Shown here in pieces: positions 2,947 to 20,926 of a DNA stretch of 25,130 nt. This DNA comes from a virus: IMG/VR virus record IMGVR_UViG_3300042383_000603, positions 1 to 25,130 of that record; one strand, given 5' to 3'. Under the pieces are notes generated by a model that searched no databases, was not told the DNA's origin, and saw only the letters and a program-made list of their open reading frames with translations. The position numbers and the translations under genes are program-made. How positions within the stretch are numbered: the stretch's first letter is position 1; each line of letters opens with the position of its first letter.

Positions 2947-4496
2947 CAGATACTCCCTGCCGCGCTGACCGCGGCCTGTAGCTCGCGGCCTAGCTCGGCC
3001 TGCGTGCCCGCCGTGATCACCGGCGAGTTCCAGTTGATGACGACATCGCCGCCTTGGGCTGCCTCGGTGCCGCCGCCAGCCTCGGGACGGGCAGGCGCGC
3101 TAGGTGCCGAGCCGATGGCCGCGGCGCCCACGCCAGTCGCGACAGCAATGGCTGTGAAGGCCACGCCGGCTCCGATATGAGCCGCACCACCGGCATAATC
3201 GTACTTCGCAAACGACGCCGCAGCGTCAGCAAACTCGGTCGCTGCTTTCAGCGTGGCGTACTGCGAGATCATCTCGAGGAACGCTTTGGCAAGGCCCTGG
3301 AAGGCTTCCTCTGCCGTCTGCTCGCCGGTAGCAATGGCGGCAAGCGACTTGCCGAACGCCATCGTGGCATCGCCAAGCAGGCCCATCAGCTCGCCATTGA
3401 GAGACCGCCTGCGCTCTAGGCTGCGCTCCTCGTCGGCCTCTTGGTTCTCTTTCATCGCAAGCTGGCCTTCTCGGATGCGCTCTTGCCGCTCATTCTCCAT
3501 CTCGGCCAGCGCCTCGTTGACCTCGCGCTGCCGCTCAAGCTCGGCGTCCTGCGCCTCGATGGCCATCTCCTTGAGAGCCTCATAATGGGCGTTGCGCTTC
3601 TCCTCGATTAGCGCGTTTGCCTCGGCCTCGCGCTCCGCGCGCTCTGCTGCCAGCCGCTCAAACTCGGCGCTGATTCCGGCGATGTCCTCGTTGCTGGCTG
3701 CGCCGCCGAGCATCTCAAATACGTCGCGCCCTCGACGGCCACCGCCGCCACCGCCGCGCCTAGCTGGCGCGGATGCGGCGGCTGGTTCGCCGAAAATCGT
3801 AGTTTCACTCTCTACAGAGGATAGGATTTCAAGACGGCGAATGTCCTCGCGCAATGCGGAGACACGCGTTCCGCTTTCAGCGGCAGCTCCATATTGGTCG
3901 ATTAGCTGATTGATCTCAGCTTCACGAGCACGGATTTCTGCTCGCAATTCTTCATTTGGGAGATTTAGCGCAGCCCAGTTTTCTCCACGAATGGCTCTTG
4001 CGCGTTCGGATCGCGCTGCCGCTTCGTCCTCTCCACGAACCAATGCCAGCGCAGCAGCATACCGATCTGCATCGGTGGTAGCGTTCTGCATGGTTTCGCG
4101 TAGCTGCTCAATCGCAGAGCGACTGCTATCCGATGCGGTGACGACGTTGAACAGGCCAGCCGCGAGTCCTGCAATGCCACCAACGACAGCGCCAGTCGGT
4201 CCGAGCATGGCGCCCATGGAAGCGAACTGAGCAGTTGCGCCGGCCACGCTAGCAACGAGACTTCCGGTTCTGTTCTCACTGCCGAATGTACTAGCCAGCG
4301 TTTGCACCGCTCCGGCTACACCCTGGATGCGTTGCGCCGTGTTCTGAAAGCCACGCGAGAACGACTCGATTGTGACGCCCGCTCGGTCCGCAGTCTGGCC
4401 GACGTTGGAGATACCTTGGCTGACGCGGCCCAGCTCGCGCGTCGCCTCGGATGCGCCGTCAAACGTGACCTCGATTTGAATCGGCTGCTCAGCCAT
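2946..4496 (-). CDS. Tape measure protein
   Basis: The protein has 516 residues. Features seen: a helical N-terminus, a hydrophobic Gly/Ala-rich segment at about residues 84-120 of the kind tape measures use for membrane contact, a Gly/Arg-rich linker (RRGGGGGGRRGR) near residue 240, a long charged coiled coil at about 270-375 dominated by Glu, Arg and Ala, and a second Ala/Gly-rich hydrophobic stretch near 420-460. It directly follows the frameshifted tail chaperone, the usual position. At about 0.15 nm of tail per residue the length predicts a short tail, near 75 nm. The start has GAGGG just upstream and overlaps the end of the frameshifted frame by 8 bases. The DNA for about residues 120-240 is less GC-rich than its surroundings. 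Confidence 0.88.
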   Translation of the reverse strand: MAEQPIQIEVTFDGASEATRELGRVSQGISNVGQTADRAGVTIESFSRGFQNTAQRIQGVAGAVQTLASTFGSENRTGSLVASVAGATAQFASMGAMLGPTGAVVGGIAGLAAGLFNVVTASDSSRSAIEQLRETMQNATTDADRYAAALALVRGEDEAAARSERARAIRGENWAALNLPNEELRAEIRAREAEINQLIDQYGAAAESGTRVSALREDIRRLEILSSVESETTIFGEPAAASAPARRGGGGGGRRGRDVFEMLGGAASNEDIAGISAEFERLAAERAEREAEANALIEEKRNAHYEALKEMAIEAQDAELERQREVNEALAEMENERQERIREGQLAMKENQEADEERSLERRRSLNGELMGLLGDATMAFGKSLAAIATGEQTAEEAFQGLAKAFLEMISQYATLKAATEFADAAASFAKYDYAGGAAHIGAGVAFTAIAVATGVGAAAIGSAPSAPARPEAGGGTEAAQGGDVVINWNSPVITAGTQAELGRELQAAVSAAGSI

Positions 4497-5429
4497 GGCG
4501 CCCTCGTTGTGCGTTCATCGTCGCCTGCTTGCGCTGGCGCTCGCGCTCGCGCTCCTCGTCGCGGATGCGCTGCTCGTCGGCCGTCGTGGCGACCTTGGCG
4601 CGCGTATACACGCCCAGCGCCACCATGAGCTTGTGGTCGGGGTCCGGGCCGACCACCGGGCCGAGTGCGTGCGCATCGCCAGTCGCCCACGACACGCCCA
4701 GTACATCGCGCACCACGGGCTCGTAGAAGGCCCGCCACGGGCACGTAGGAGGCCGGATGCCCGTCACCCGCTCCACCGCGACAAGCACGCCTCGAGCGGC
4801 ATCCTGAGCGCGCCCGTGGTCGAGCTGCTCAGGGCGCTCGATGCCGTCGCAGTCGCAGCCGTACACCTCGCGCCAGCCCTTTAGCCGCTCGTAGCTGGTG
4901 CCGGGTCGGCTGCGCTCTTGCTCGGGGCTGAGCTGGCAGCCTGCCCGCGCATCTGCTCCGCAAGGTGGAACGCGAGGGCCCCGACCGCGGATCGCGAGGT
5001 ATCCGGCAGCGGCCAAGCTGCCGGCCTCCCTTTTCCCAGGATGGATCTCCCGTAGATAGCCGCTCCCACCTCCTGCACCTCACCGTAATCAAATGTCGAG
5101 TCGATTACGCTGGATGCAACGGGCCGCTCGGGGTCAGGACGATGCCACTCCCGGCGATTACCGTTTTCCGAGTACAGGTCCTCGCACCGGAGGATTCCGC
5201 GTGCGAACGCAGCAGTCAGCCTGTCGGCCTCGGTCGAGTAGCTGTTGACAGCTTGCATCTCCGAGACCTTGAGTCGGCGGCAATGGTACACGGTCGGCCG
5301 CTCGCCCTCGCGAAACTGGGCGTGTGCAACGTCGCCAGTCTCGCGGAACTTGCGGACCGCATCCGGTCCCATTGCCTCGGGGTCAAGTGCCGGGTCGAAC
5401 CGGCACACTACGCGGAATCCGGTGTCCAT
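4489..5429 (-). CDS. Tail assembly chaperone, -1 frameshift product (gpGT-like)
   Basis: This is the predicted extended product of the tail chaperone gene, joining 5429-5032 in the first frame to 5031-4489 in the -1 frame. The first 133 residues are shared with the short product. Slippage on GGGAAAA (5031-5037) then continues for 180 residues in the other frame, giving about 313 residues. The -1 frame is open from the slip site to the stop at 4489 and has no convincing start of its own; the first possible initiator is a TTG inside the stem-loop. The T-like part ends in a charged helix (DEERERERQRKQA). In lambda the GT product links tail tube subunits to the tape measure during assembly. The position between tail tube and tape measure genes is exactly the expected one. 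Confidence 0.82.
4881..5429 (-). CDS. Tail assembly chaperone, short product (gpG-like)
   Basis: The zero-frame product has 182 residues, starting at ATG 5429, 18 bases after the tail tube stop. It opens MDTGFRVVCRFDPALDPEAM, has a mixed alpha/beta body with a Glu/Arg-rich middle, and ends in a low-complexity Ser/Ala/Pro tail that lies beyond the frameshift site. Such a dispensable-looking tail after the slip point is typical of chaperones of this class. Family assignment rests on gene order and on the frameshift signal rather than on sequence identity, since these proteins diverge fast. Most ribosomes are expected to make this form and a minority the extended form. Confidence 0.8.
   Translation of the reverse strand: MDTGFRVVCRFDPALDPEAMGPDAVRKFRETGDVAHAQFREGERPTVYHCRRLKVSEMQAVNSYSTEADRLTAAFARGILRCEDLYSENGNRREWHRPDPERPVASSVIDSTFDYGEVQEVGAAIYGRSILGKGRPAAWPLPDTSRSAVGALAFHLAEQMRGQAASSAPSKSAADPAPATSG
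5003..5037 (-). promoter_or_regulatory. Programmed -1 ribosomal frameshift signal
   Basis: On the minus strand the heptamer G GGA AAA (5037-5031) lies in the correct X XXY YYZ phase relative to the chaperone frame, whose codons begin at 5036 and 5033. A 6-base spacer GGGAGG (5030-5025) follows, then a perfect 8-bp stem CCGGCAGC / GCTGCCGG (5024-5017 and 5010-5003) closed by the loop TTGGCC. Slippage moves ribosomes into the frame that is open to 4489. The heptamer matches the lambda G/GT type (GGGAAAG) except for its last base. Confidence 0.88.
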
Positions 5430-5447: not shown

Positions 5448-6707
5448 TCAGGCCAGGTGAATGCGGAAAGGCGACTTGCCGATCTCGCTCGTGTCGGCGC
5501 CGACATCCGTATCGCGCCGGCCCTTCCACATGACAGTCTGCGCCGCGAGTCCGCCCGCGTCAGCCGCACGCTGCGGATTGAGCACCTGCAACGTCGGCGC
5601 GGACAGCACGACCGCCGAGCCAGCGGCCACGCCCATCGTGTACGTGCACGCGTAGTCCGTGCGGTTGTTGCGGCCAGTGAACCACGTGTTGTCCTGGTAA
5701 GGCAGGGTGAACTGGCCCTGTACCGGCGAGTCCATGTTCCTCGAGGCTACCCACTGCTTGACCGTATTGATGCCGTTCGGGCTCGTGTACGGCACGTAGG
5801 CAATGTGCGGCTCCCACGCCATCGCAGACACGTGGATTGACTGCGTGGTGGCGAACGTCGCCGCGCCCACAGTCCACACCTCGAAGTTGCCAGCCTCGCC
5901 GACGATGGGGTTGTAGTTGCTGTAGGTCGCAGTCCCGATGCTGCCGGTGAACGGCGTGCCGACTTCGCCGCTGTCATACCACCGCGCCGAGGTGATATTG
6001 AACGTGATTCGAGGCAGCGCCGCAGCCGTGGGGTCGACTGCGATGGTGATGCCGCCGACAGCCTGCGAGCCCGTCAGTAGCCAGCGGTCGTCAGACTCGA
6101 GGCCATACACCGCGAACGCCATCGACGCGGTGGGATTCTCGGTCATGAAGTAGGTAGCCGCGTTGAATAGCGCGTTGCCGTTCGCAGGCGCTCCGCTGAA
6201 TCCGCGCTTCAAGGTGATGGCGTCCGTGGAGCGCGACTCGACCTCGCGCCACTCGACCACACCCGCCGAGTTGGCCCAGCCCATGAGCTGACCCGGCGAT
6301 GCCCAGCGCGTGCCCGTTCCAGCCGACACGTTGACCACAGAGGCCGTCGAGCCCGCAGCGGCCGTCGAGCCGGTGCCCAGCGTTTCACCGCCCATGATGT
6401 TCTTGAGCAGCAGCCCGAGCCCGCCCTGGACCGCAGCTACCGCGTTGCCCGCAGCCGTGCCCGTGGGCGCGAGATTGAGCTGGAACGACAGCGTGGCCGA
6501 CCGCTTGCCAAGCACGCGCTCACGACCCTCAAGGCGCGACTGCACGAGCTGTCCAGGGTCAAGCTCGTCGCGAGTCAGCGTCACCGTCGCCGAGCCCTCG
6601 ACAATGGGAAGGTCGGTGAACGACGCAATCGAAGATGACGAGTCCGCACCGAACGTAACCTCGGTGAACACTCGGATGCGCTGGACTGAGTGGACTTCGA
6701 TGCTCAT
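5448..6707 (-). CDS. Major tail tube protein
   Basis: This 419-residue protein starts at ATG 6707, four bases after the stop of the upstream gene. It is rich in Thr, Ser, Gly, Ala and Val with many alternating beta patterns, has few charged runs and no membrane segment, as expected for a tail tube subunit. At 419 residues it is longer than a minimal single-domain tube protein, so it probably has an added surface or Ig-like domain. It lies just upstream of the frameshifted chaperone and tape measure, the standard siphovirus order. A sheath protein is the main alternative, but nothing else here suggests a contractile tail and there is no second, smaller tube gene. Confidence 0.75.
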   Translation of the reverse strand: MSIEVHSVQRIRVFTEVTFGADSSSSIASFTDLPIVEGSATVTLTRDELDPGQLVQSRLEGRERVLGKRSATLSFQLNLAPTGTAAGNAVAAVQGGLGLLLKNIMGGETLGTGSTAAAGSTASVVNVSAGTGTRWASPGQLMGWANSAGVVEWREVESRSTDAITLKRGFSGAPANGNALFNAATYFMTENPTASMAFAVYGLESDDRWLLTGSQAVGGITIAVDPTAAALPRITFNITSARWYDSGEVGTPFTGSIGTATYSNYNPIVGEAGNFEVWTVGAATFATTQSIHVSAMAWEPHIAYVPYTSPNGINTVKQWVASRNMDSPVQGQFTLPYQDNTWFTGRNNRTDYACTYTMGVAAGSAVVLSAPTLQVLNPQRAADAGGLAAQTVMWKGRRDTDVGADTSEIGKSPFRIHLA

Positions 6708-6710
6708 GGC

Positions 6711-7247
6711 TTAGCTCGTTGCTGGTGTCGACCGAGCGACACAGGTGAAGCGGTGATCCGTTTCGATGATGGATGCCCCATCATCCAGCGGCCCGCGGAC
6801 ATCGATGCTGCTGTCTACATAGGATAGCAGACCAGACACGATGCCGGTCGCAGTACCGGCAGTCGTCGTGCTGAGATTGCCTGGGAAGCCAAGCGCCTGT
6901 GCGAGTACGTCGGCGTCCTGAAAAGACAGGGCCTTGGCAGTGTCCCGCAGCGTGTCGTTGATCTGCGCCGTGCGGTCGATGAGCCGCTGCACACGCACGC
7001 GCACCTCGAGCTCGTACAGCGCGAGATTGCCGACCACAGGCGGGCTCGACGGCGACCGCTTGACCGATGTAACGCGCGCCTCGACGCGAGCGCCAGTGAC
7101 CACACCACGGGCGCTGCCCATGTCGTCCTCGCCCTCGGGGAAGTCGCCGAGATACGTGCCCGCCGTGATGGCGCGCAGCGAACCGGCCGCTTGCTCGAGC
7201 ACCTGCCGGATGCGCGTCTGGATCGGTCCTGCGGCGAGGTAGGCCAT
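6711..7247 (-). CDS. Tail terminator / neck protein candidate
   Basis: This 178-residue protein is coupled to the gpG-like gene by a TGATG overlap and followed closely by the tail tube gene. It opens with a helical stretch (IQTRIRQVLEQAAGSLRAI), then a beta-rich middle with 'LALYELEVRVRVQRLIDR', and ends in strands with 'IIETDHRFTCVARS'. That alpha-then-beta layout, its size and its position between the virion morphogenesis protein and the tail tube match tail terminator proteins (lambda gpU-like), which cap the tube. No diagnostic sequence motif is visible, so this is a positional call. Confidence 0.6.
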   Translation of the reverse strand: MAYLAAGPIQTRIRQVLEQAAGSLRAITAGTYLGDFPEGEDDMGSARGVVTGARVEARVTSVKRSPSSPPVVGNLALYELEVRVRVQRLIDRTAQINDTLRDTAKALSFQDADVLAQALGFPGNLSTTTAGTATGIVSGLLSYVDSSIDVRGPLDDGASIIETDHRFTCVARSTPATS

Positions 7248-7774
7248 CAGGTGTTCCGTCCGCTGCGGATGTACTCACGGACCATCTCGCGCACCTCGCG
7301 CCAGTGCTGCCCAGCAGGCCCGGTAGTCATCAACGCAAACTGCGGAGTGACCGGCAAGAACGGCCGCGCCGGCACCGAGTAACGCCACGGCGAGCCCGCT
7401 TCGCGGCGCGGATTGTACCGCGTCCGCTTGTATTGGCCGGTGCGCTCAAAGCCCATCTGATGCGGACGCGCGTAGATGACGTTCGTGCCAAACGAAAGCA
7501 CGACTCCGCGCGCTGTAGCTGTCACGGAGTTGCGCAGAATGGCTGTATCAATCAGCGGCTTGCTGCTGCCTTGACGCCGCTTGGCAATGGTCTTTGGCGA
7601 CAGCGCCTGCCAGCGCGTTCCATCGGGCGAATGGCTGCCATCAAACGCATCATCGATGAGTGTCTTTGTGTCCGCAGCCGCGACGGTCAGCACCGGATTC
7701 AGGTCGCGCGCACGGGCAATCGCGGCGTCAATCTCGCGCTTCGTCTGCCGTGCTCCGTTGACCCGGAATGTCAT
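7247..7774 (-). CDS. Phage virion morphogenesis protein (Mu gpG / P2 gpS-like tail completion)
   Basis: The protein has 175 residues. Characteristic family stretches are visible: 'SPDGTRWQALSPKTIAKR' near residue 50, 'KPLIDTAILRNSVT' near 72, 'FGTNVIYARPHQMGFE' near 95, and 'PARPFLP' near 135. This family, named virion morphogenesis protein, contributes to head completion and head-tail joining. Its start and the stop of the preceding connector gene share one base (TGATG), and it is coupled in the same way to the next gene, so expression is probably co-translational. The N-terminus is basic and helical. No anomaly seen. Confidence 0.86.
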   Translation of the reverse strand: MTFRVNGARQTKREIDAAIARARDLNPVLTVAAADTKTLIDDAFDGSHSPDGTRWQALSPKTIAKRRQGSSKPLIDTAILRNSVTATARGVVLSFGTNVIYARPHQMGFERTGQYKRTRYNPRREAGSPWRYSVPARPFLPVTPQFALMTTGPAGQHWREVREMVREYIRSGRNT

Positions 7775-8220
7775 CAGAACCCCTGCAGCTTGCCAGGGCC
7801 GAAGTAGCTCGGGCGCGCGTTGGTTCCAGTCGTCGGGCTGCTAATGTTGCCGCCGTACCCGGCCAGCGTGTCAGGCGTCATGCCGGGAATCGGCAGCTTC
7901 TTATTGTAGAGTGCGTCCAGCCGGAACAGCGCCTCGCTGATGGTGCCGCTCGGATCGAACGGAAGCCGGATGCCCTTCCGGAACTGGAAGGCATCGCGGA
8001 TCATGATACCGGCCACGAGCTGCGCCAGAAACGCGCCCTGGGGAGTCAGGTGATCGACCGTATCCGGCGGCGTGTAGCCGGCATACTGCATGGCCGAAAT
8101 CACCGTCCCCTGGGCGGCGTTCTGGTAGTGCGTGAACGTGTTGCCAGATAGACCGAGCGCCGTGCGGGCCGCGGTGCCGATCATCAGATTGATGAAGTTC
8201 GCATCGACCCACGCGGCCAC
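7774..8220 (-). CDS. Head-tail connector candidate
   Basis: This 148-residue protein starts at ATG 8220, three bases after the upstream stop, and shares a TGATG overlap with the gpG-like gene. It opens with a helix (MAAWVDANFINLMIG), continues mostly helical to about residue 110, and ends in a Gly/Ser/Thr/Pro tail. Size, helical content and position after the major capsid protein and before gpG fit a head-tail adaptor or head completion protein. I do not recognise a specific family motif. Confidence 0.55.
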   Translation of the reverse strand: MAAWVDANFINLMIGTAARTALGLSGNTFTHYQNAAQGTVISAMQYAGYTPPDTVDHLTPQGAFLAQLVAGIMIRDAFQFRKGIRLPFDPSGTISEALFRLDALYNKKLPIPGMTPDTLAGYGGNISSPTTGTNARPSYFGPGKLQGF

Positions 8221-8223
8221 GGT

Positions 8224-8826
8224 TCACCTCGATTGATTCGCTCGCGCTCCACTCGACTGCTGAGAAGCCGCCATGGCCTTGCCGAGAGTCTCGGCCAGCT
8301 TGGTCACTAGCCCCTCGAGGCGCGTGGCGTCGCGATTGGTCTCGGTCTCAGGCGCCTTGAGCTGTTCCACCTTGGTCAGCCGCGCAATCGGCGGCATGCC
8401 GCCAGGAAAGTTGCGCGAGAACTCGAGGCTCGGGGTGGTCTCGCCGAACATTTTGATCGCCTGCTCCTTGCGGAGCCGGTAGGCCTCGGAGCCATCGTCC
8501 TTGCCCACCGAGGAGATCACGAATCGGTCGAGGGCGCGGTTGAAGGTTTTGATGGCCTCCGACCACGCGCGCTTGTGCTCGTCGGTCGCGACACGCGCTT
8601 CAATGTCGGGAAGCTCGGTCTCATAGACCACCAGGCGATGCGTGCCCTGGCGGACATGCTGGCCACCGATGACGATGCCATTCGTCGGCGTAACCTCGAC
8701 CTCGATCAACACCCGCGCTTCGTCGCGAGTGGGAACGGAATGCTTGTACGTCTTACCGTCCGACTTGGCCGTGATCGGGTTGTCGGGCAGGCGCGCATAC
8801 AGAGAACCAAAGTTGCTGGACGACAT
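8224..8826 (-). CDS. Unknown structural-region protein
   Basis: I place the start at ATG 8826, giving 200 residues, because GGAG lies six bases upstream. Two earlier in-frame ATGs (8838 and 8892) have weaker sites, and using the farthest would force translation through the strong hairpin after the capsid gene. The protein begins MSSSNFGSLYARLPDN, has a beta-rich first half (VLIEVEVTPTNGIVIGGQ), a helical middle with 'EHKRAWSEAIKTFNRALDRF', and a helical C-terminus with 'TRLEGLVTKLAETLGKAMAA' ending in a Gln/Ser-rich tail. No family recognised. It sits between the capsid and connector genes, so a head accessory or neck role is plausible. Confidence 0.6.
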   Translation of the reverse strand: MSSSNFGSLYARLPDNPITAKSDGKTYKHSVPTRDEARVLIEVEVTPTNGIVIGGQHVRQGTHRLVVYETELPDIEARVATDEHKRAWSEAIKTFNRALDRFVISSVGKDDGSEAYRLRKEQAIKMFGETTPSLEFSRNFPGGMPPIARLTKVEQLKAPETETNRDATRLEGLVTKLAETLGKAMAASQQSSGARANQSR

Positions 8827-11930: not shown

Positions 11931-12884
11931 TTACAGCCTTGGATTGCCGAACCCGGGATCGGGCTCGATGGGGAGTGTGGACGCGTCGACCACGCGAGTC
12001 AAATCCACATCACGCTCGCGCCGAGTGACTACGGCACAGCGGCACTGATAGCCGAGCGGCGGCGCGTATCGCTGCCACGCTGGGTCGGTCTGGCGGAACA
12101 CCATGCGATTGAGTGCCGCATGATTCGGGCGCACGCGGTTGTCACCAGCGGTGCGGTACTCGACAAACGGACGCGCGGCCATGACCTCGGGCGCGGTGAT
12201 CTGCCGCAATCGGCCAGCGCCATAGGCGGATTGCGTGTTCGTGCGGAAGATGTTTTCGAGGTAGTAGCTGCTCGTCGGAGTCACCCCGAGGTCGACTTCG
12301 CCCGCACGCACGGACGCAGTGAACTCGCGCAGACTGACGCCCTGATTGAGCTGGTCCGACAGAATCTCACGCACGCGCCGCACGAGCTCCGTGCTCGTCA
12401 TGTTGCTGACCGAGAATGCCCGCGCACGAGCCTCGGCGGACAGGCGCCGATACTGAGCCGGCGTGATGAGCCGCCGCGCCAAGAACTCGCGAATGGCCTC
12501 CTCGAAAGGCATCGCGAAGAACGCGTCACCAGTCACACGCGCAAGCGGCACGGAGCGCGGTGCAGACTCGGGTACCTCGACCGTGCGCACGACGAGCTGC
12601 CCGCCCATGTCGGCGGTCATCAGCGTCTGATAAACGAGCGCCGCAAACTCCGGATCTTTCTCAATGCCTGCGCCCCACTCGTCGAGCTTGTCGGACTCGA
12701 GGGCGCCTGCGAGTGTCTCCATCCATCGGTCTGCAATCGGCAGAGCCGCCACGACTCCCGCTCCGCTGACCTGCTGCGGGATACCGATGGTGGTCTGTGC
12801 GACTCGCTGGTCTGCATCGCTCAGGGCGTGGAAGTCGGCGTATCCTCGAGCATCTCGCTCGCTATCCGGTCGGCCATCTCCCAC
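11931..12884 (-). CDS. Minor head protein (Mu gpF / SPP1 gp7-like head morphogenesis)
   Basis: The C-terminal third carries the head morphogenesis domain: 'IFRTNTQSAYGAGR' at residues 212-225, 'DNRVRPNHAALN' at 248-259 and 'PPLGYQCRC' at 275-283, the hallmark R-T-x-T, R-x-x-H and P-P-x-G-x-x-C-R-C motifs. These proteins sit near the portal inside the prohead and aid assembly or DNA ejection. The assigned GTG start at 12884 overlaps the portal gene by 64 bases and lacks a clear ribosome binding site, so the true start is uncertain; an ATG at residue 55 is the next candidate. The stop abuts the protease start. Confidence 0.87.
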   Translation of the reverse strand: MGDGRPDSERDARGYADFHALSDADQRVAQTTIGIPQQVSGAGVVAALPIADRWMETLAGALESDKLDEWGAGIEKDPEFAALVYQTLMTADMGGQLVVRTVEVPESAPRSVPLARVTGDAFFAMPFEEAIREFLARRLITPAQYRRLSAEARARAFSVSNMTSTELVRRVREILSDQLNQGVSLREFTASVRAGEVDLGVTPTSSYYLENIFRTNTQSAYGAGRLRQITAPEVMAARPFVEYRTAGDNRVRPNHAALNRMVFRQTDPAWQRYAPPLGYQCRCAVVTRRERDVDLTRVVDASTLPIEPDPGFGNPRL

Positions 12885-14821
12885 GGAAAAGGGGAAGCCG
12901 CGGGCGCACCCCCGGACGCGTAGGTGGTCTGCGCGGGCTCCATCGCGAGCTGCCCCGCGATGCCCGCTGCCGCAGTCTCAGGCGATGCGCTCGGCGACGA
13001 CGCAGGCGGGATGCACCGCTCGGCGAAATGCTGCTCAGTCCACCGCCACTGTCGCTGCGGATTGGCATCGTCCAGGTCCGCGAAGTACACGTGCCCGCCG
13101 CCCACAGCCTTGACCTCGAGGCGATGGCCGTCCTGCGAGTCGTGCCACACCTCGCCGACGCTGGGCGCAGTTTTGTACTCGGCGGCAAGTGGCGTGGTCG
13201 CTGCGGGCGCCGCGGCTGCCGGCTGCGGCAGTAGCTCGGACGGGAGCACGATGGACGCCTGTGCCTGGACCATCGACGCGGCATCAGCATCGGAGATGGA
13301 CGGGAAGGCGTTGCGGATGGTGATGATCGCGGCTTCGGGCGCGAGCGTCTTTCCGCTGACAGCCGCGAGCAGCTCGGCGAGCGAGGCAATCTGGGCGCCA
13401 TTGAGCGCGGTATCGGCGACAGCCTCTGCGCCACCAACAGCCGGCGTGGCCGCAGCGGTGGGCATCATCGACGCAGCATCCGCAGCGGTGCGCGCCACGC
13501 GGTTGCCGCCGCGCTCAGGGCCCCACTCGGGCAGACCATCGCGGGCGCGCAGCTCGTCGATAGTCACGCCGCCCACGGTGATGAGTTCCGCGCTTGGCTT
13601 GGGCGACAGCTCCTCGGCAAAGCGCGTCGAGACCACCGGCAGCGCCGGCATACGCCCGCCGTATCGCCACGAGTTGAACTCGAGGAACGGCCGAATCAGG
13701 TCACGAGTCAGGGTGGCCCACAGACTCGCCGAGTCCTTCTTGATGCGCGGGTCGATGGTCGTCGCTGCCTGCGACTCGCCAAGCGCGCGGTTGCCGCCCG
13801 TCGCGCCGACCTCGGTGTTCAGCGTCGAGCCGAGCACCGCCTTGGTCATGCTGTCGTCGCACCACTGCTGAAGCGAGGACCACACCGACGATGCGCCCTG
13901 TGCCGAGGGATTCTGGATCTCGACCCGCACGCGCTCGTCAACCACCATCGTCCCGGTGGCAGACAGGTTTTGTAGGTCGTCAAACAGGTTCTGCCGAAGC
14001 GGCTGCGGCGTGTCGACTGGCACAAAGCCAATCGCTCGCGGATTGCCGCTCACCTCGGCGCCGCTGAGGTTGTAGCTCACGCACTGCCACTTGACCCACC
14101 ACGGGCGCACGCAGCTCCGCAGAATGCCCGAGCTGATGGCGTAGTCGGGGATGACTCGCGGCATGTGCACAATGAACTTGTTTTCGCGCAGCGGCTTGCC
14201 CATCAGGCCAATCTGCATGTTGGCGTCGATGTCGCCTCCGAGCCGGCCGTCGTCCCACAGATACGGATGGATGAGCCGGTCGAAGCGGAACCGATGCGGC
14301 TCAAGGATCTCCATGCCCTCAGGCCACACCCACGACCCGCGCACACCCCAGATGATCTCTTGCACCGAGTAGCCGACGAACACGGCGTCAAGCACGGCAT
14401 CAAGCAGCGTCGGAAGGTCGGGAATCGACCGCAGCATCAAGTCGACATCGCGCGCCGCCTGTGCGTCGATGGCCGATGCACCGCCCGGAGCAACGTCGAA
14501 GTCCGCTCCGCTGATGGGGTCGAGCCGCGTGCCGCGCAGCGCCAGCAAATGCGCGTCCTGGTACATGCGCCGAGTCAGCCGCGCCCAATCCTCGGTGGCG
14601 CCGGTGATCTCGGCATTCTGCATGATGCCCAGCAGGTCGGACCACGACAGCGTGCCCCACTGGCCACCGCGCCACCGCGTCAGCGTAGCGGGAGGGGCAT
14701 CGCGCCCAGCGTAGGACGCAAGCTCGAGCACGGGCGCCGGCTGCGGAACGCCGATGATCGGACTCGCATCAAGCGCCCGCTTGGACGCACGACGACTCAG
14801 CAGGTCAGACCCGGCACCCAT
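12821..14821 (-). CDS. Portal protein (DUF935 / Mu gp29-like) with C-terminal extension
   Basis: The protein has 666 residues. The first 450 fit the DUF935 portal family: 'VFVGYSVQEIIWGV' at 147-160, 'MEILEPHRFRFD' near 170-181, 'LRENKFIVHMPRV' near 211-223, and 'VLGSTLNTEVGATGGNRALGES' in pieces near 329-350. It forms the ring through which DNA enters the head. Beyond residue 450 are Ala/Pro-rich linkers, a helical region ('AQIASLAELLAAVSG', 476-490) and a small beta-like module at about 553-605 with conserved-looking Trp residues. The gene starts 65 bases after the glycosyltransferase-like gene; its GAGG ribosome binding site lies within potential RNA hairpins. Confidence 0.9.
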   Translation of the reverse strand: MGAGSDLLSRRASKRALDASPIIGVPQPAPVLELASYAGRDAPPATLTRWRGGQWGTLSWSDLLGIMQNAEITGATEDWARLTRRMYQDAHLLALRGTRLDPISGADFDVAPGGASAIDAQAARDVDLMLRSIPDLPTLLDAVLDAVFVGYSVQEIIWGVRGSWVWPEGMEILEPHRFRFDRLIHPYLWDDGRLGGDIDANMQIGLMGKPLRENKFIVHMPRVIPDYAISSGILRSCVRPWWVKWQCVSYNLSGAEVSGNPRAIGFVPVDTPQPLRQNLFDDLQNLSATGTMVVDERVRVEIQNPSAQGASSVWSSLQQWCDDSMTKAVLGSTLNTEVGATGGNRALGESQAATTIDPRIKKDSASLWATLTRDLIRPFLEFNSWRYGGRMPALPVVSTRFAEELSPKPSAELITVGGVTIDELRARDGLPEWGPERGGNRVARTAADAASMMPTAAATPAVGGAEAVADTALNGAQIASLAELLAAVSGKTLAPEAAIITIRNAFPSISDADAASMVQAQASIVLPSELLPQPAAAAPAATTPLAAEYKTAPSVGEVWHDSQDGHRLEVKAVGGGHVYFADLDDANPQRQWRWTEQHFAERCIPPASSPSASPETAAAGIAGQLAMEPAQTTYASGGAPAASPFPWEMADRIASEMLEDTPTSTP

Positions 14822-14886: not shown

Positions 14887-16080
14887 TCAACGGACCCACT
14901 CGGCAACTCGGTGCGCCGCCGACTCCCATGCTCGGCAGACAGCCGGCACGGTGACAGCAGGACCCCTGTTGCGCATCGTGCGCAACACCGTGAGCGTGTC
15001 GCCCGCTGCCGCATAGTCCACGATGGCGCTGCCCTCGAGCAAGCCCGGCACATCTACTGCCGGCGTGCCGTCGCCCATTGCTTTGACCATCGCCAGCGTG
15101 CGCTCTGTCTGCGCCTGTATGTCGGAGCGTGCGTCGAACGCCTCGGCCTGTAGTGACCGGCGCGGCGCGTGGCCCCAGCCGTCGATGGCTACGTCGGGCT
15201 CGTGCTGCCACAGGTCAAGCTCAGGCCGGCGCGCGGCGAAGGTGGCGAGCCACTCGCGGTCTCCCTCGAGGGTCTCGGGCGCCCACCGTCGCGAGCCGTC
15301 CACCGCGACCACAGGCACCATGCGCTCGACCCGCAGCGGCGGTCGCTGGCCCGATGCCAAGTGCAGCGCGTCCTTGGCCTCGAGGCCCGACACGTGCCCG
15401 AGGTAGTGATCGACCGTGCCATCGGGCAGGGTCGCCGCCTCGACGCGCTCAAGCTTGACCGTGGACCAGTCGGAGCCCGACGCATACGCCTGGCCGTCTG
15501 GTCCGAAGGCGCGCGTGCATCCGAGCAACTCGATGCGCTCAGCACCCCACCGCTCGGCAAGCGCCACCGCGGCGGTCACGTTGGAGGTGCCGCCATACAG
15601 CGGCTCGATGCCCGTATGCGCGGCCAGCCCGAACGTCTGCGTCGAGGCAGGCACGAACCATCGAACATCCGCGCAGACCTCCAAACAAGCGAGCCATGTG
15701 TCGTGGTGAGTGCCTACGTCGAGCACCGCAATCGGCCACTCCGAGCGCGGCATCTGGCGCCACACCTGGGATGCGCGGCGGATCTGCTCGGCCATGCTGA
15801 TCGACTCGCGGCACAGCAGCATGTCGGGCCAGAAGCCCCGCGACGCCAGCGGCAGAAGCGCGCTGTTGACTGCGATGGTCACTATTTCGCGCTCGTGCAG
15901 CAGCGTGGCGTGTACGTCATCCGGCAGCGTGTGACCGGCACCGATGACCATCACCGTGTCGGACGCGCGCAGCCGCGTGGAGCACTTGTCCAGCGTCATC
16001 ATCCGCGCGTTGCGCGCGATGGCCTCGGCAATGTGCGGCGCCTTGAACAGCGCGAATGCCTGGGATGTACGGTCCATCAC
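14887..16080 (-). CDS. DUF115 / Maf-like putative nonulosonic acid transferase
   Basis: The 397-residue protein resembles the DUF115 / flagellin-modifying Maf family: 'VMVIGAGHTLPDDV' at 43-56, 'VNSALLPLASRGFWPDMLLC' at 71-90 and 'YGGTSNVTAAVALAERWGA' at 162-180 followed by 'ERIELLGC'. These correspond to the nucleotide-binding GxGPSL-like loop, the conserved strand ending in P-D, and the G-G-[ST]-x2-[TS]-A helix. Maf proteins transfer pseudaminic or legionaminic acid to flagellin Ser/Thr. The start overlaps the methyltransferase stop as ATGA. With NeuB-, NeuA- and phosphatase-like genes upstream in the same coupled run, the best reading is a CMP-nonulosonate glycosyltransferase. Acceptor unknown. 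A distant alternative is another DUF115 activity such as a pterin pyrophosphokinase-like enzyme. Confidence 0.72.
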   Translation of the reverse strand: MMDRTSQAFALFKAPHIAEAIARNARMMTLDKCSTRLRASDTVMVIGAGHTLPDDVHATLLHEREIVTIAVNSALLPLASRGFWPDMLLCRESISMAEQIRRASQVWRQMPRSEWPIAVLDVGTHHDTWLACLEVCADVRWFVPASTQTFGLAAHTGIEPLYGGTSNVTAAVALAERWGAERIELLGCTRAFGPDGQAYASGSDWSTVKLERVEAATLPDGTVDHYLGHVSGLEAKDALHLASGQRPPLRVERMVPVVAVDGSRRWAPETLEGDREWLATFAARRPELDLWQHEPDVAIDGWGHAPRRSLQAEAFDARSDIQAQTERTLAMVKAMGDGTPAVDVPGLLEGSAIVDYAAAGDTLTVLRTMRNRGPAVTVPAVCRAWESAAHRVAEWVR

Positions 16081-17258
16081 TTCGACTCCACGGGCTTATT
16101 CAGATTCAGTCCAAGCTGGTTGTTGATGTGCGCGATGGCCGTGCCCATGCGCTGCCCCTCATAGATGCGGCCGGCGTAGAAGCCGCGCATCCACGGGTCA
16201 GCGTGCCAGTCGGGACGCTCGACCTCCTCGAGCATGCGGCAGAGCTTGGCCAGCGATACGCCAGCATCCGAGCCCATGCGGCGCCACCGCTGGAACTCGT
16301 CGGCCATGAAGTCGAGCGTCGCGCGGTTGTCCTCGCCCGACACGCGTGCGCGCCACTCCGCATCTAGAAAGCACTCGATATGGCGCTCGGCCGCGGCGGT
16401 CGCTGCACGCTGCCGCTCCCACGCCAGCAACTTGCCCACGACCTCGGGCGCAAGCGGGCCACCATGCGGCTCATACGCGCGCGGACCATCAGCCGAGCGC
16501 ACACCCCAGCCGAGCAGCACCGAGCCGTCGATGGCCGTGTGCACCTCCTTGAGCCCAGCCCGGCGCAGCGCCGCGGCCAGCGTGTGCGTCGAGTAGTTGA
16601 CCACATGCGGCTTCTGCAGGAAATGACTCAGGCTCACATACGGGCGCTCGACCGTGGGCACCTCGACGAACACAAGCCCGCCGACCTTGACCCGCCGCAC
16701 CATCGCCTCGAGCTCGCCCACGGGGTCCGCGAAGTGCTCGACCACCTGCAGCGCGTAGGCGATGTCGAAGCCGTCATCCTCGAGGCCGGCCAGCTCCGCG
16801 CCGCGCTCAACCGCCTCGGCAGCTAGCCGCGGGTCGTACTCCGCAGCGCGTACGTCGACGCCGAGCCGCCGCATGGCCGCTGCCACGCGCCCATCGCCGC
16901 AGCCCACCTCGAGCACGCGCACGCCCGCTCCGAGCCCCAGGGCATCGATTAGACGCCGCGCCGCGTGCTCGCCGTGCCGGTCCAGCGTGTCCGCGTAGTC
17001 GTCATCCTCGGGCCGCACCGTGCGCCCGGTCGGCTGTAGCTCGGCGTCCAGCTCCTCGCGTGGCAGCGCGGGGAACTCGCGCCGGTATTGCCCGGACCTG
17101 TAGTAGTCCGCCACCTCGGCCGCGGTTGGATGCGGGCTCGTCTGCAACAGCGAGCACTGCGAGCACGCTACGGTCAGTAGCGGTCCGGTGCGTCCCTGGT
17201 CGTGCACGTGCAGCGCATCGCCCAGCGTGTGCCCGCACAGATAGCAATCATCGGTCAT
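16077..17258 (-). CDS. Class I SAM-dependent methyltransferase with N-terminal zinc-binding motif
   Basis: The protein has 393 residues. Cys5, Cys8, Cys32 and Cys35 form a CxxC...CxxC zinc-binding knot. The Rossmann core follows with motif I 'VLEVGCGDG' at 115-123, an acidic 'AAEYDP' after strand 2 near 138-143, 'YALQVVEHF' at 168-176 and 'GGLVFVEVP' near 193-201, typical of Methyltransf_23-type enzymes. A zinc knot before this core is seen in sugar C-methyltransferases, but the C-terminal 130 residues here are helical and charged and do not look like that family's third domain. Coupled by ATGA at both ends within the sugar cassette, it probably methylates a sugar or glycan; the substrate is not known. 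Confidence 0.82.
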   Translation of the reverse strand: MTDDCYLCGHTLGDALHVHDQGRTGPLLTVACSQCSLLQTSPHPTAAEVADYYRSGQYRREFPALPREELDAELQPTGRTVRPEDDDYADTLDRHGEHAARRLIDALGLGAGVRVLEVGCGDGRVAAAMRRLGVDVRAAEYDPRLAAEAVERGAELAGLEDDGFDIAYALQVVEHFADPVGELEAMVRRVKVGGLVFVEVPTVERPYVSLSHFLQKPHVVNYSTHTLAAALRRAGLKEVHTAIDGSVLLGWGVRSADGPRAYEPHGGPLAPEVVGKLLAWERQRAATAAAERHIECFLDAEWRARVSGEDNRATLDFMADEFQRWRRMGSDAGVSLAKLCRMLEEVERPDWHADPWMRGFYAGRIYEGQRMGTAIAHINNQLGLNLNKPVESK

Positions 17259-17467
17259 GGCAACTCCACTCCGCTCTCGTCGAGAATCCGATACAGCAAC
17301 TCACGAGCCCATTCCGCGCGGTACGCCGCGGGCTCCTCGCCGTGCTTGGCAATGCTGCGTAGCTCGCGGTCCAGTTCAAGCACGACCTCGCGCCACAGGT
17401 GGCCTTCTAGCGCGGCGCGGTGGTCGTCGGCCTCCTCGGGCAGCGTGAATACCAGCGTGGCCTTCAT
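17255..17467 (-). CDS. Small phage protein inside the sugar cassette
   Basis: This 70-residue protein starts at ATG 17467, overlapping the NeuB-like stop as ATGA, and its own stop overlaps the methyltransferase start the same way. It begins MKATLVFTLPEEADDHRAAL and has a helical body 'WREVVLELDRELRSIAKHG'. A beta strand followed by 'F-x-L-P-E-E' and then a 'LDxxLR' helix is a pattern I associate with small conserved phage proteins of unknown function. The frame continues upstream to 18094, but that part is a shadow of the NeuB-like gene. Role unknown. Confidence 0.75.
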   Translation of the reverse strand: MKATLVFTLPEEADDHRAALEGHLWREVVLELDRELRSIAKHGEEPAAYRAEWARELLYRILDESGVELP

Positions 17468-18318
17468 GGCTTGCTCCACGACGACCGCCGCATGGTTTGG
17501 ATCTTGGCGTACTCGGCCGCATCGACCGGCCGCTCGGCGCCGGTAGTCAGCGCATCCTCGAGGCTGCGGATCTCGTACACGAGTGCCTGCAACTCGGCCG
17601 GCTCGAGGCTGGCTTTCTGGTCCGAGCCCCATTGCAGGCGCGAGAGGGTCACGTGGCGCTCGACCATGCACGCGCCGCGAGCCACGGCGCCCAGCGTCAC
17701 CGCGAGCGTGCCTGGGGCTTCGTGGCCGCTCCATCCGACCGGCAGCCCGTACCGCTGGCGCAGCTCGTCGAGCACTAGCAGCCGAGCCATGCGCGGCGGG
17801 TGCGGGTACACCGAGCACGTGTGCAGCAGCGTCAGCCGCACGCCCGCCGACAGCAGCCGCTCCACAGCCGCGTCGATCTCGGCCCACGTGCTGCCGCCCG
17901 TCGATAGCACCACCGGCACGCCCGAGCGCCCAGCTTCGTCGAGCGTGTCCGTGTCCGTGATAGCAGCGGACGGCAGCTTCAAAAACGGCAACTGCCATGC
18001 TCGCAGGAACCGCACGCTCGGCGGGTCGAATGCCGAGCTGGTCCACGGAATACCCAGGTCGCGCGATGCCGCTGCAAGCATGGCGAACTCGCACTCGCCG
18101 AACTCAATAGTCCGTTTGTAGTCGACGTAGCGCATCGGACCCCACGGGGTCGAGCGCATGTCATCGGCCATCTTCGGCGGGATGGCAAGCTCGAGGTCGC
18201 GCTTTTGCAACTTCACGACATCCGCGCCTGCCGCCTTGGCCGCGCGCATGAGGTCCACCGCGACGGCGATGCTGCCTTGGTGATTGATCCCGATCTCGGC
18301 AACGACCTGTACTCTCAT
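17464..18318 (-). CDS. NeuB-like nonulosonic acid synthase lacking the SAF domain
   Basis: The 284-residue protein is a TIM-barrel PEP-condensing synthase of the NeuB/SpsE family. Motifs: 'VAEIGINHQGS' at 6-16, 'AGADVVKLQKR' at 30-40, 'LKLPSAAITD' at 113-122, 'VVLSTGG' at 136-142, 'LLHTCSVYP' at 164-172, 'GWSGHE' at 195-200 (family usually G-[FY]-S-D-H-T) and 'VERHVT' at 219-224. His199 and His222 correspond to the metal-binding histidines. It would condense phosphoenolpyruvate with a hexose or N-acylmannosamine, or their 6-phosphates. Bacterial NeuB enzymes are near 340-350 residues with a C-terminal antifreeze-like (SAF) domain; here it is absent. ATGA overlaps at both ends. Confidence 0.85.
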   Translation of the reverse strand: MRVQVVAEIGINHQGSIAVAVDLMRAAKAAGADVVKLQKRDLELAIPPKMADDMRSTPWGPMRYVDYKRTIEFGECEFAMLAAASRDLGIPWTSSAFDPPSVRFLRAWQLPFLKLPSAAITDTDTLDEAGRSGVPVVLSTGGSTWAEIDAAVERLLSAGVRLTLLHTCSVYPHPPRMARLLVLDELRQRYGLPVGWSGHEAPGTLAVTLGAVARGACMVERHVTLSRLQWGSDQKASLEPAELQALVYEIRSLEDALTTGAERPVDAAEYAKIQTMRRSSWSKP

Positions 18319-18998
18319 GCTTCCTCTTGCCAGCGATGCCGCCGCTGGGCGCGCTCAAGCTCGGCCGGCGTGTCGATGTCGATGGCCGCGTCTACGTCCA
18401 TCTCCATCACGCGGCAGTCACCACCAGAACGGTCCTGGTACTTGCGCCAGCAGTCCGCGGAGAACGCGTACACCGCGCCGTTCTCCGCGACCAGCTTGGG
18501 AAGCTCCGAGGTGAACATCCGGTGTGCTGGCCGGTTGCGATGCCAGCGACCATCGGCGTCGTAGTAGCCCGCGAAATACACATCCTTCGTGACCTCGTGC
18601 ACCGAGATCACCGAGTCACAGCCGGTGCGCTCCATGATGGCCAGTGCCGAGGCTACGTGTCTGCGCTGGCGTAGTGGCGATGTCGGCTGCAACAGCACGT
18701 ATCGCCGCGCCGGATGCAGACTGACCACGTGCGCGATGACATCCTCGAGGTGCACGCGCTTGCCGGTCAGCGACTCGTCAAGCTGCACGCCGAAGCACCG
18801 CAGGCGCAGCCGGTCCGCGAAGGCCCTGCCGTGGCTGATGATGTCCGCGTCATCCGAGCACAGCGCCACCGCATCGCACGACACAGCCGAGTGGATAGCC
18901 CGCTCGACCAGCGTGTGCGCCCCCACCCGCTTGAGGTTCTTCGACGGCAGCCGCTCGGACTTGGCCTTGGCCGGGATGATAGCCAGCGTGCCGATCAT
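18315..18998 (-). CDS. NeuA-like CMP-nonulosonate cytidylyltransferase
   Basis: I set the start at ATG 18998, which overlaps the phosphatase stop as ATGA, giving 227 residues; the frame upstream is a shadow of the phosphatase. Motifs: the nucleotide-binding 'IIPAKAKSERLPSKNLK' at 7-23, 'LLQPTSPLRQ' at 102-111, 'ENGAVYAF' at 172-179 and 'VDAAIDIDTPAEL' at 202-214, whose Asp residues bind metal. This pattern marks CMP-sialic acid synthetases and relatives that activate nonulosonic acids with CTP; the 'QPTSPLR' stretch favours the NeuA side over the KdsB side of the superfamily. The length is normal for the single-domain enzyme. Product feeds a CMP-sugar-dependent transferase. Confidence 0.86.
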   Translation of the reverse strand: MIGTLAIIPAKAKSERLPSKNLKRVGAHTLVERAIHSAVSCDAVALCSDDADIISHGRAFADRLRLRCFGVQLDESLTGKRVHLEDVIAHVVSLHPARRYVLLQPTSPLRQRRHVASALAIMERTGCDSVISVHEVTKDVYFAGYYDADGRWHRNRPAHRMFTSELPKLVAENGAVYAFSADCWRKYQDRSGGDCRVMEMDVDAAIDIDTPAELERAQRRHRWQEEA

Positions 18999-19471
18999 GG
19001 CCGCTCCGGTACGGCAAGCGCGCCCGTGCGCGGCTGGGCCAGCAGTTGCCGCAGCACCTCGTACAACACGCCCTCGCCGCCTCGAGCGTGCGTGCGCTTG
19101 TGGTGGCCGGTCCAGCCTGCCGCATCGCACGGCATCCAGACCTCGTGGGCCAGCTCCATCGCGTCCATGTCGCCGCCCGTGCCGTCGCCGATGTAGACCA
19201 CGCGCCAGCCGTCCTCGAGGTGCAGGCGCACTAGCTCGGGCTTGTCGATGCCAGGGTGGTACTCGGCGCCGATCTTGGCCGCACGGCACTCGACCGGCGA
19301 GGTGTTGGGGTCGTCGGTAATCAGCGCCACATCGATGCCAGCGTCTTTGGCCGCCTGGATGAGCCAGCCGTCGCGCTTGTGGAATCGCAGGCTTTCATGG
19401 CCCGACTCGTTGACCCACACCGTCCCATCGGTGAGCGTCCCGTCTACGTCGCAGATTACCACTGTCCGCAT
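18995..19471 (-). CDS. KdsC-like HAD phosphatase (nonulosonate-9-phosphate phosphatase candidate)
   Basis: The start is ATG 19471 (158 residues) with AAGGA about 9 bases upstream; the longer frame to 19519 adds only a spacer translation. HAD motif I 'DVDGTLTDG' at 8-16 holds nucleophile Asp8 and acid/base Asp10. 'FHKRDGWLI' at 30-38 matches the KdsC 'F-x-v-R-D-G-x-x-I' stretch. Lys77 in 'GIDKPE' and 'YIGDGTGGDMDAM' at 93-105 fit motifs III and IV, and 'GGEGVLYEVL' at 131-140 matches the C-terminal KdsC loop. Such C0-type enzymes remove phosphate from KDO-8-P, KDN-9-P or Neu5Ac-9-P. Next to NeuB- and NeuA-like genes, a 9-phosphate sugar acid is the likeliest substrate. First gene of the cassette. 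Confidence 0.85.
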   Translation of the reverse strand: MRTVVICDVDGTLTDGTVWVNESGHESLRFHKRDGWLIQAAKDAGIDVALITDDPNTSPVECRAAKIGAEYHPGIDKPELVRLHLEDGWRVVYIGDGTGGDMDAMELAHEVWMPCDAAGWTGHHKRTHARGGEGVLYEVLRQLLAQPRTGALAVPERP

Positions 19472-19531: not shown

Positions 19532-20926
19532 TCAATGGAATCCACCTCGAGGCCGCGACACGGCTCGGAAGCTCTGCATGTTGGCGCCACTCGGGCGGTG
19601 CAACTCAAGCCATGCGCGAGACACCGCATCAACCTTGTTGTCCTTGCCGCCCGATGCGCCGTCGAATCCGTCGAACTCACTCAGCAGCGCGTCGAGCCAC
19701 GGGCCGCGCACGACGTAGATGGGCGGGCCAGTCCCGAGTGCACCGTGCTCGGCTGCCGTGGCCCATGGACGCGCGTACTCGAGCTTGCTCGAGGATGCCC
19801 GCTCGGCGCGCACCGCATACGGCCTGAGCTGTTGCGTGGTCGTGTCCACGTCCACGATGCCGGCCTGCCCTGGGTCCTGCCAGATGCACTGCGGCACTGA
19901 TGCGCCGTCCGACTCCGCGCATGACCGCATGAGCGAGAACACCGATGCTGGCGTGCCGCGCACCGTGGCTACGTCGAGCACCACGTAGCCCTGGCCATCG
20001 CCGAGCATGCCGAGCTTGACGCCCACGGTCTCGTCTCCTCCGACAGTCGCGCCCTTGTCCCAGCCGCGCACGGTCATGCCGACCGGTCCGGGCGGCGCAT
20101 CGACCACGCGGAACCACTCGCGCCGAATCACGTTGCCGGCGCTGTGGCGGACGTTCCAGTTGCGACCCAACAACCGCTCCCGCTCCACGAACGGCAGCGC
20201 CTCGAGGCGCTCGCGATAACTCGGGTCACCCAGCCGGTTGTCCTCGAGCTTGGCGGATACGAAGGTCAACGACAGCGGCTTGCGGCCGGGAAACTCGGCG
20301 AGTGCATCGGCCTCGGTGTCGTACCACCGCAGCTCGTCACGGATGCGGATGAACCACCGGAGTTGCCCGCTGCGCTCCTCGATGGGCAAGCCATCGGGAC
20401 CGATCCACCAGTCGATGAGCTTGCGAACGAATGAGTCGCTGTCTGGGTTGCACGTGGCCCGGATATGCGCCCTGACGTTGGCATTGGTCCGCGCGCGGGA
20501 CAGCAGATACCAGAACTGCGACTCCTCGAACTGAGTCAACTCCTCAAATACGATGGTCGCGTATTGCTTGGACTGGTGGCCGTGTACGTCCCACGCGTGC
20601 TGCAAGTGGCGGAACTCCACGATGGCGCCGCTCGGAAAGCGCCAGTCGAGATTGGGATTCTGCCGCGGTGTACCGCCGAGGTTGCGGAACATCGTCTGCG
20701 ACTCCTCCCAGATGGAGCCGCCGCCCGTCAGCTCGGTCGAGGTGCGCCGGAACACGACCGCCGAATACCGCGGCAGGTCCACCAGCGAGGCAATCCACAG
20801 CAGCACCGAGAACGACTTGCCCGAGCCCGCCGCGCCGCCGAAAATAGCAACGTCCGCGGCCGATGCCATGAACGCCTCTTGCGGTCCCGGCTGCGGCGCG
20901 ATGGTGACTAGCTCACTCGTCGTCAT
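19532..20926 (-). CDS. terL: Terminase large subunit
   Basis: The 464-residue packaging motor protein has both expected domains. ATPase: Walker A 'GGAAGSGKS' at 30-38, 'VVFRRT' adenine-motif region near 57-62, Walker B 'TIVFEEL' at 124-130. Nuclease: 'RGWDKG' with Asp290, 'WQDPGQAG' with Asp351, and 'KDNKVDAVSRAW' with Asp429/Asp433, the metal-binding acids of the RNase H-like fold. It cuts concatemeric DNA and pumps it through the portal. The start overlaps the small terminase gene by 14 bases. It is followed by the sugar cassette instead of the portal, which is unusual. Length and motifs look intact. Confidence 0.95.
   Translation of the reverse strand: MTTSELVTIAPQPGPQEAFMASAADVAIFGGAAGSGKSFSVLLWIASLVDLPRYSAVVFRRTSTELTGGGSIWEESQTMFRNLGGTPRQNPNLDWRFPSGAIVEFRHLQHAWDVHGHQSKQYATIVFEELTQFEESQFWYLLSRARTNANVRAHIRATCNPDSDSFVRKLIDWWIGPDGLPIEERSGQLRWFIRIRDELRWYDTEADALAEFPGRKPLSLTFVSAKLEDNRLGDPSYRERLEALPFVERERLLGRNWNVRHSAGNVIRREWFRVVDAPPGPVGMTVRGWDKGATVGGDETVGVKLGMLGDGQGYVVLDVATVRGTPASVFSLMRSCAESDGASVPQCIWQDPGQAGIVDVDTTTQQLRPYAVRAERASSSKLEYARPWATAAEHGALGTGPPIYVVRGPWLDALLSEFDGFDGASGGKDNKVDAVSRAWLELHRPSGANMQSFRAVSRPRGGFH

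Follow-up and report, generated by a model that had tools for sequence, protein, structure and literature searches.

The cassette and its setting

The window, by which we mean the whole stretch of DNA analysed (IMG/VR record IMGVR_UViG_3300042383_000603, 25,130 bases), belongs to a virus known from environmental DNA, and nearly all of its genes lie on the minus strand. Their order on that strand runs from a DnaB-type helicase through terS, terL, a six-gene cassette, a Mu-type portal, MuF and the Mu I protease to the head and tail genes. Two overlapping open reading frames upstream of a tape-measure-like gene (4881-5429 and 4489-5016) resemble those of a tail assembly chaperone made by programmed frameshifting. 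The cassette occupies 14887-19471 on the minus strand, flanked by terL and the portal gene:

19532..20926, minus strand: terminase large subunit (terL), upstream flank (phrog_979, E=1.4e-123; PF03237)
18995..19471, minus strand: C0-type HAD phosphatase, probably a nonulosonate-9-phosphate (KDN-9-P) phosphatase (PF00702, 28 bits; KdsC and NF058599 below cut-offs; D/R/K)
18315..18998, minus strand: predicted CMP-nonulosonate synthetase, NeuA/PseF-like (PF02348; TIGR03584 below cut-off; PDB 6ifd, 1eyr)
17464..18318, minus strand: predicted short (SAF-less) NeuB nonulosonate synthase (PF03102; NeuB_NnaB below cut-off; active-site residues)
17255..17467, minus strand: 70-aa protein with no assigned function (84% match in contig L025; missing in L026 and L029)
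16077..17258, minus strand: SAM methyltransferase with N-terminal Cys pairs, CxxC...CxxC (PF13489, E=2e-17; alignment)
14887..16080, minus strand: DUF115/MptE-like protein, probable Maf-type nonulosonate transferase (PF01973, 41 bits; AF2 model matching Maf 5mu5)
12821..14821, minus strand: Mu-type portal protein, downstream flank (PF06074, E=4e-51)

All five junctions within the cassette are four-base overlaps of stop and start codons (ATGA, ATGA, ATGA, ATGA and GTGA), with 60 bp separating terL from the cassette and 65 bp separating the cassette from the portal gene. The Pfam matches of five cassette proteins all exceed the Pfam cut-offs. Domain matches and overlaps bear out the earlier note, which had described six coupled genes between terL and portal; all are present as listed. 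The minus strand from 12.7 to 21.7 kb yielded no consensus promoter or terminator, no likely membrane segment was found in any of the six proteins, and the cassette holds neither a flippase nor a polymerase gene. An anti-phage defence system was considered and rejected, PADLOC having given nothing over the cassette beyond a generic match of the methyltransferase core to mad2.

Recurrence and selection

The block recurs between terL and portal in five other virus contigs, as a search proposed in the earlier note has now revealed; two are near-identical to the window and three encode proteins about 49-66% identical. In 3300007735_000911 (L030), terL is followed by the phosphatase gene, the NeuA gene and the first part of NeuB, 94-99% identical to those of the window, and 3300012000_001059 (L025) carries the block from the 70-aa gene onward at 84-98% identity. 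The divergent cassettes are those of 3300042355_000858 (L026), 3300042879_002555 (L028/L037) and 3300021585_000069 (L029). The terL side of the block is visible in L028/L037 and L029, in the latter up to the methyltransferase, and the portal side is visible in L026, starting at the end of NeuA. These relatives are metagenomic contig fragments without known host, each showing part of the block and none all six genes. Apparent inteins, recognized by length and motifs, occur at the terL P-loop (L029, 2522-4021; L037, 7729-10290, an ORF of 854 aa) and, in L026, within the MuF-like protein (6508-8481).

Every cassette gene is under purifying selection. Measured against close relatives, dN/dS was 0.02 for the phosphatase, 0.10 for NeuA, 0.13 for NeuB, 0.27 for the 70-aa gene, 0.26 for the methyltransferase and 0.07 for the DUF115 gene, in the range of the flanking terL (0.06) and portal (0.20) genes. 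These ratios and the same gene order in other IMG/VR contigs exclude chance or an assembly artefact, and on sequence evidence we regard the cassette as real and conserved, with a well-supported predicted product.

The acidic 70-aa protein is encoded between NeuB and the methyltransferase, with a copy 84% identical in L025. Since the gene is missing from that place in the divergent lineage (L026, L029), it is not an essential part of the cassette; the small phage protein counted as a member by the earlier note is present in the window. The methyltransferase is of class I (Methyltransf_23, 64 bits), and its AlphaFold model (pLDDT 44) is too poor for interpretation.

The genes of synthesis

The phosphatase matches the KdsC (E=2e-13) and KDN-9-P phosphatase (NF058599, E=5e-13) models of NCBIfam near equally, in both cases below the curated cut-offs (49.5 bits against 180 for NF058599). 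In an alignment on BT1713, the KDN-9-P phosphatase of Bacteroides thetaiotaomicron with a solved structure (Glu56 to Ala variant also in the PDB, 4hgq), it keeps the HAD catalytic aspartates D10 and D12 together with R64 and K67. The position of Glu56 is occupied by Asp in the phosphatases of all cassette phages, and the phage triad at 56/64/67 is D/R/K. We take Glu56 and Lys67 of BT1713 to be determinants of KDN-9-P specificity. Bacterial phosphatases beside the nearest short NeuBs carry E56/R64/K67 in 56 of 58 scorable cases, a count biased towards the BT1713 type because the domains were gathered by similarity to BT1713. In the three KdsC-type PDB sequences position 56 is Arg and position 67 is not Lys, whereas the phage has Asp and Lys there, which weakens the case for a Kdo pathway with the phosphatase in the role of KdsC.

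The second gene is, as judged from domain and motifs, a cytidylyltransferase nearest PseF and NeuA, with the features expected of a CMP-nonulosonate synthetase. It matches CTP_transf_3 (E=4e-8, 34 bits), contains the motifs QPTSPLR and IDIDT, and scores 61.2 bits (E=1e-16) against the PseF equivalog TIGR03584, whose cut-off is 205.7; its PDB matches include the NeuA structures 6ifd and 1eyr, with the IDIDT motif aligned.

The NeuB-like synthase described earlier stands as a clear member of the NeuB superfamily (E=7e-59, 200 bits), in a short form of 284 aa that ends before the SAF domain. It keeps all residues aligned with E25, K53, Q55, K129, Y186, H215, E234, H236 and D247 of Neisseria meningitidis NeuB, and the 23 invariant columns of the NeuB alignment include the metal and PEP residues K36, Y171, H199, H222 and D233. 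The SAF domain of the meningococcal enzyme presumably provides the Arg314 contact to the N-acetyl group. Against NeuB_NnaB the phage protein reaches 209.6 bits (E=6e-62; cut-off 399.65), and with the SAF domain missing it falls outside the NnaB equivalog. Because their scores lie under the respective cut-offs, the cassette proteins are not filed under the KDN-9-P phosphatase, NnaB or PseF equivalogs.

The nearest bacterial NeuBs found, 39-48% identical to the phage protein, are also short: among 80 bacterial loci, 82 of the 85 scored copies extend less than 45 aa past the aligned region. Their genes usually directly follow a fused NeuA-phosphatase (as in Streptomyces, Aeromicrobium and Anaerolineae) or a separate phosphatase (as in Hymenobacter and Chlorobiaceae). 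In the phage, NeuA and phosphatase are two separate genes, joined to the methyltransferase and DUF115 genes. The cassette NeuBs form a single phage clade (support 100/100) on a long stem. A first tree nested the divergent phage NeuBs within Actinomycetota, and a smaller tree that included the window NeuB put them outside; tree evidence names neither the bacterial donor of NeuB nor the host of the phage.

The candidate transferase

The last gene encodes a protein of 397 aa with an MptE-like/DUF115 domain (41.4 bits). Its AF2 model is of low confidence (mean pLDDT 52, core 70-86) and finds the Maf glycosyltransferase 5mu5 as its top PDB match (E=1.9e-5), MptE structures as matches 2-6 (best E=1.2e-4), and human sialyltransferases further down the list without significance. 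WD40 matches of the DUF115 protein in a PDB search were spurious, one short motif having been added up over many repeats. Maf 5mu5 is longer (632 aa), and the two align structurally at 16% identity. The DUF115/PF01973 core appears to be common to the phage protein and the Maf flagellin nonulosonate glycosyltransferases, and no flagellin gene lies near the phage cassette. Maf enzymes attach nonulosonic acids to protein Ser/Thr by O-glycosylation, both CMP-Neu5Ac and CMP-KDO being accepted (PMC11339370). Structure prediction, which the earlier note had suggested, was thus of use for the DUF115 protein and failed for the methyltransferase. The Maf-like assignment survives only at the level of fold, with MptE a close second, and the DUF115 protein is probably a nonulosonate transferase.

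The DUF115 protein was not found in the four bacterial genomes searched nor in 50,697 phage records, and a profile search of viral contigs revealed no further members. Structure matches among viral proteins include several MptE-like proteins of uncultured phages; those of greatest length (685-714 aa), among them one with the name methyltransferase-domain protein, may, from length and name, be further methyltransferase-DUF115 fusions.

Related loci in other phages

An unrelated P22-portal phage (3300045051_000281, L003, 9992-17947; 3300044712_000830, L168, 5860-9698), which differs from the window in portal and terminase, is a second lineage pairing NeuB and cytidylyltransferase with DUF115. 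Genes for a short NeuB, a class IV aminotransferase, a SPASM protein and a cytidylyltransferase immediately precede terL; a methyltransferase-DUF115 fusion comes shortly after the major capsid protein, ahead of further particle genes. The aminotransferase and SPASM protein set it apart from the window, and no KdsC-like phosphatase was found there. A third phage (L013, 2537-15975) has a larger sugar-biosynthesis cluster directly upstream of terL, with nucleotidyltransferase, NeuA, NeuB and epimerase-like genes. In two marine phages (L005, 8712-10843; L006, 9684-11523) a HAD-like phosphatase of about 100 aa adjoins genes for an SpsF-like cytidylyltransferase and a short NeuB, and the three may be a further variant of the phosphatase-synthase-activator trio.

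NeuA is also present in 16 of 20 viral records with NeuB or the cassette locus. Among the 50,697 annotated phage records, relatives of NeuB occur in three, all distant and one of them a bacterial contig, and the other cassette genes were found only in bacterial contigs; PHROGs hold no family matching NeuB, NeuA or DUF115. One entry of the phage collection, FPLJ01000048.1, is a bacterial contig of Moritella viscosa with a sialic acid capsule cluster. No paper on such a cassette was found in the open-access literature, the coverage of which was incomplete. Capsid glycosylation has been reported for mycobacteriophages: the part of PMC11256854 available, citing Freeman 2023, ties phage-encoded glycosyltransferases to capsid-protein glycans in Che8-type virions and, unlike the window cassette, describes no nonulosonate synthesis genes.

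A proposed pathway and its target

From gene identities, coupling, conservation and intact catalytic residues, all established from the sequence along with the failure to find epimerase or DegT genes, we infer the exact sugar, its transfer by the DUF115 protein, the target and the methyltransferase substrate as parts of a late-expressed, phage-encoded sugar pathway. The short NeuB would condense a host sugar 6-phosphate, most likely mannose-6-phosphate, with PEP to a nonulosonate 9-phosphate; the HAD phosphatase would strip the phosphate to give KDN or a close relative; and the NeuA-like enzyme would use CTP to activate the sugar. In the cytoplasm, the soluble Maf-like DUF115 protein would then attach it to Ser/Thr of a concurrently made protein, most likely a phage head or tail protein, and the methyltransferase may cap or modify the sugar, or modify the acceptor. 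We give this account as a whole an even chance. Counting against it are the weak DUF115 model, with MptE (a pterin kinase) nearly as good a match, the NCBIfam scores below equivalog cut-offs, the Asp at BT1713 position 56, and the fact that every record is a fragment from metagenomes.

A virion protein is the leading guess for the target, at a probability that we put just short of even, because of the late-operon position and because in the P22-portal phage NeuB and NeuA precede terL and methyltransferase-DUF115 follows the capsid gene; such recurrence of sugar genes in head and packaging blocks favours a virion target. We consider it possible, though somewhat less likely than not, that in at least two unrelated lineages of tailed phages the packaging and head region holds genes for both KDN-type synthesis and a Maf-like transferase, and that these phages sialylate their virions, perhaps using a methylated sugar. 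Alternatively, the same CMP-KDN-type pathway could modify flagellin, pilin or another surface protein of the host, either at a late stage of infection or in lysogens, and thereby prevent superinfection or alter a receptor. Flagellins are the known targets of Maf (PMC11339370), and phages have been reported to alter host serotype and capsule nonulosonic acids (PMC6586298; PMC12619734). However, the cassette sits within the packaging and head operon and not in an accessory position, it lacks a flippase, a polymerase and any likely membrane protein, and the fusion of the second lineage again lies among capsid and tail genes; we consider a host target unlikely.

The sugar itself is best explained as CMP-KDN or a close nonulosonate, CMP-KDN from mannose-6-phosphate being the simplest reading. 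Neither epimerase (PF02350) nor DegT aminotransferase (PF01041) was found in the window or in six other phage records (five with the cassette and one other, all fragments), with control genomes positive, in agreement with the earlier note. Specificity residues, neighbourhoods of relatives and intact catalytic residues likewise support its three-enzyme pathway and its choice of KDN as the simplest product. We hold it very probable that the cassette makes a CMP-nonulosonate, and somewhat better than even that the nonulosonate is KDN. The same three enzyme types (KDN-9-P synthase, BT1713 phosphatase and CMP-KDN synthetase), without epimerase, make up the KDN pathway of B. thetaiotaomicron, with a phosphatase of the same C0 HAD group that shares R64 and K67 and has Glu in place of the phage Asp. 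The phage trio, known from sequence alone, differs in its late-operon setting and its order phosphatase-NeuA-NeuB; by analogy, the cassette may work like the Bacteroides pathway joined to a Maf-like transferase. The route from mannose-6-phosphate to CMP-KDN has been carried out enzymatically by B. thetaiotaomicron and P. parvum (PMC6200933). Streptomyces, several of which are among the bacterial short-NeuB loci, have been reported with a KDN-containing teichulosonic acid (PMC11481543).

That the trio makes a nonulosonate other than KDN, for instance Neu5Ac from ManNAc-6-P, or a sugar resembling Kdo, put to the same use, is rather unlikely. The best NeuB score is for NeuB_NnaB, the NeuA-like protein is nearest PseF, and the phosphatase scores for KdsC and KDN-9-P phosphatase are about equal; yet the specificity residues and the neighbourhoods of the nearest relatives resemble KDN-9-P phosphatase, the presumed source of the Arg314 contact is missing from the phage NeuB, and no epimerase was found.

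That the DUF115 protein is instead an MptE-like pyrophosphokinase or other nucleotide enzyme, the nonulosonate being released or used by host transferases, accords with the Pfam domain name and with the MptE structures that rank second to sixth. We judge it improbable, given that the top structural match is Maf, that DUF115 is coupled to NeuA and NeuB here and paired with them in the second lineage, and that no other cassette gene points to pterin metabolism. Phages commonly carry bacterial metabolic genes, but passively kept cargo with no virion role is very improbable in view of the purifying selection, the long-lived single phage NeuB clade and the fixed position of the cassette.

Implications

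If phage-made KDN-type sugars are indeed transferred to the virion, this would be a rare bacterial virus that builds its own sugar coat, an example among viruses of prokaryotes of a self-contained pathway for coating the virion. Starting from host mannose-6-phosphate, some phages would produce sialic-acid-like sugars and attach them to proteins independently of host sugar genes, which would account for the NeuB and NeuA genes that uncultured phages carry next to terminase and portal. The cassette would offer glycoengineering KDN enzymes and Maf-like transferases in compact, soluble form, and would provide a testable model of phage particle glycosylation.
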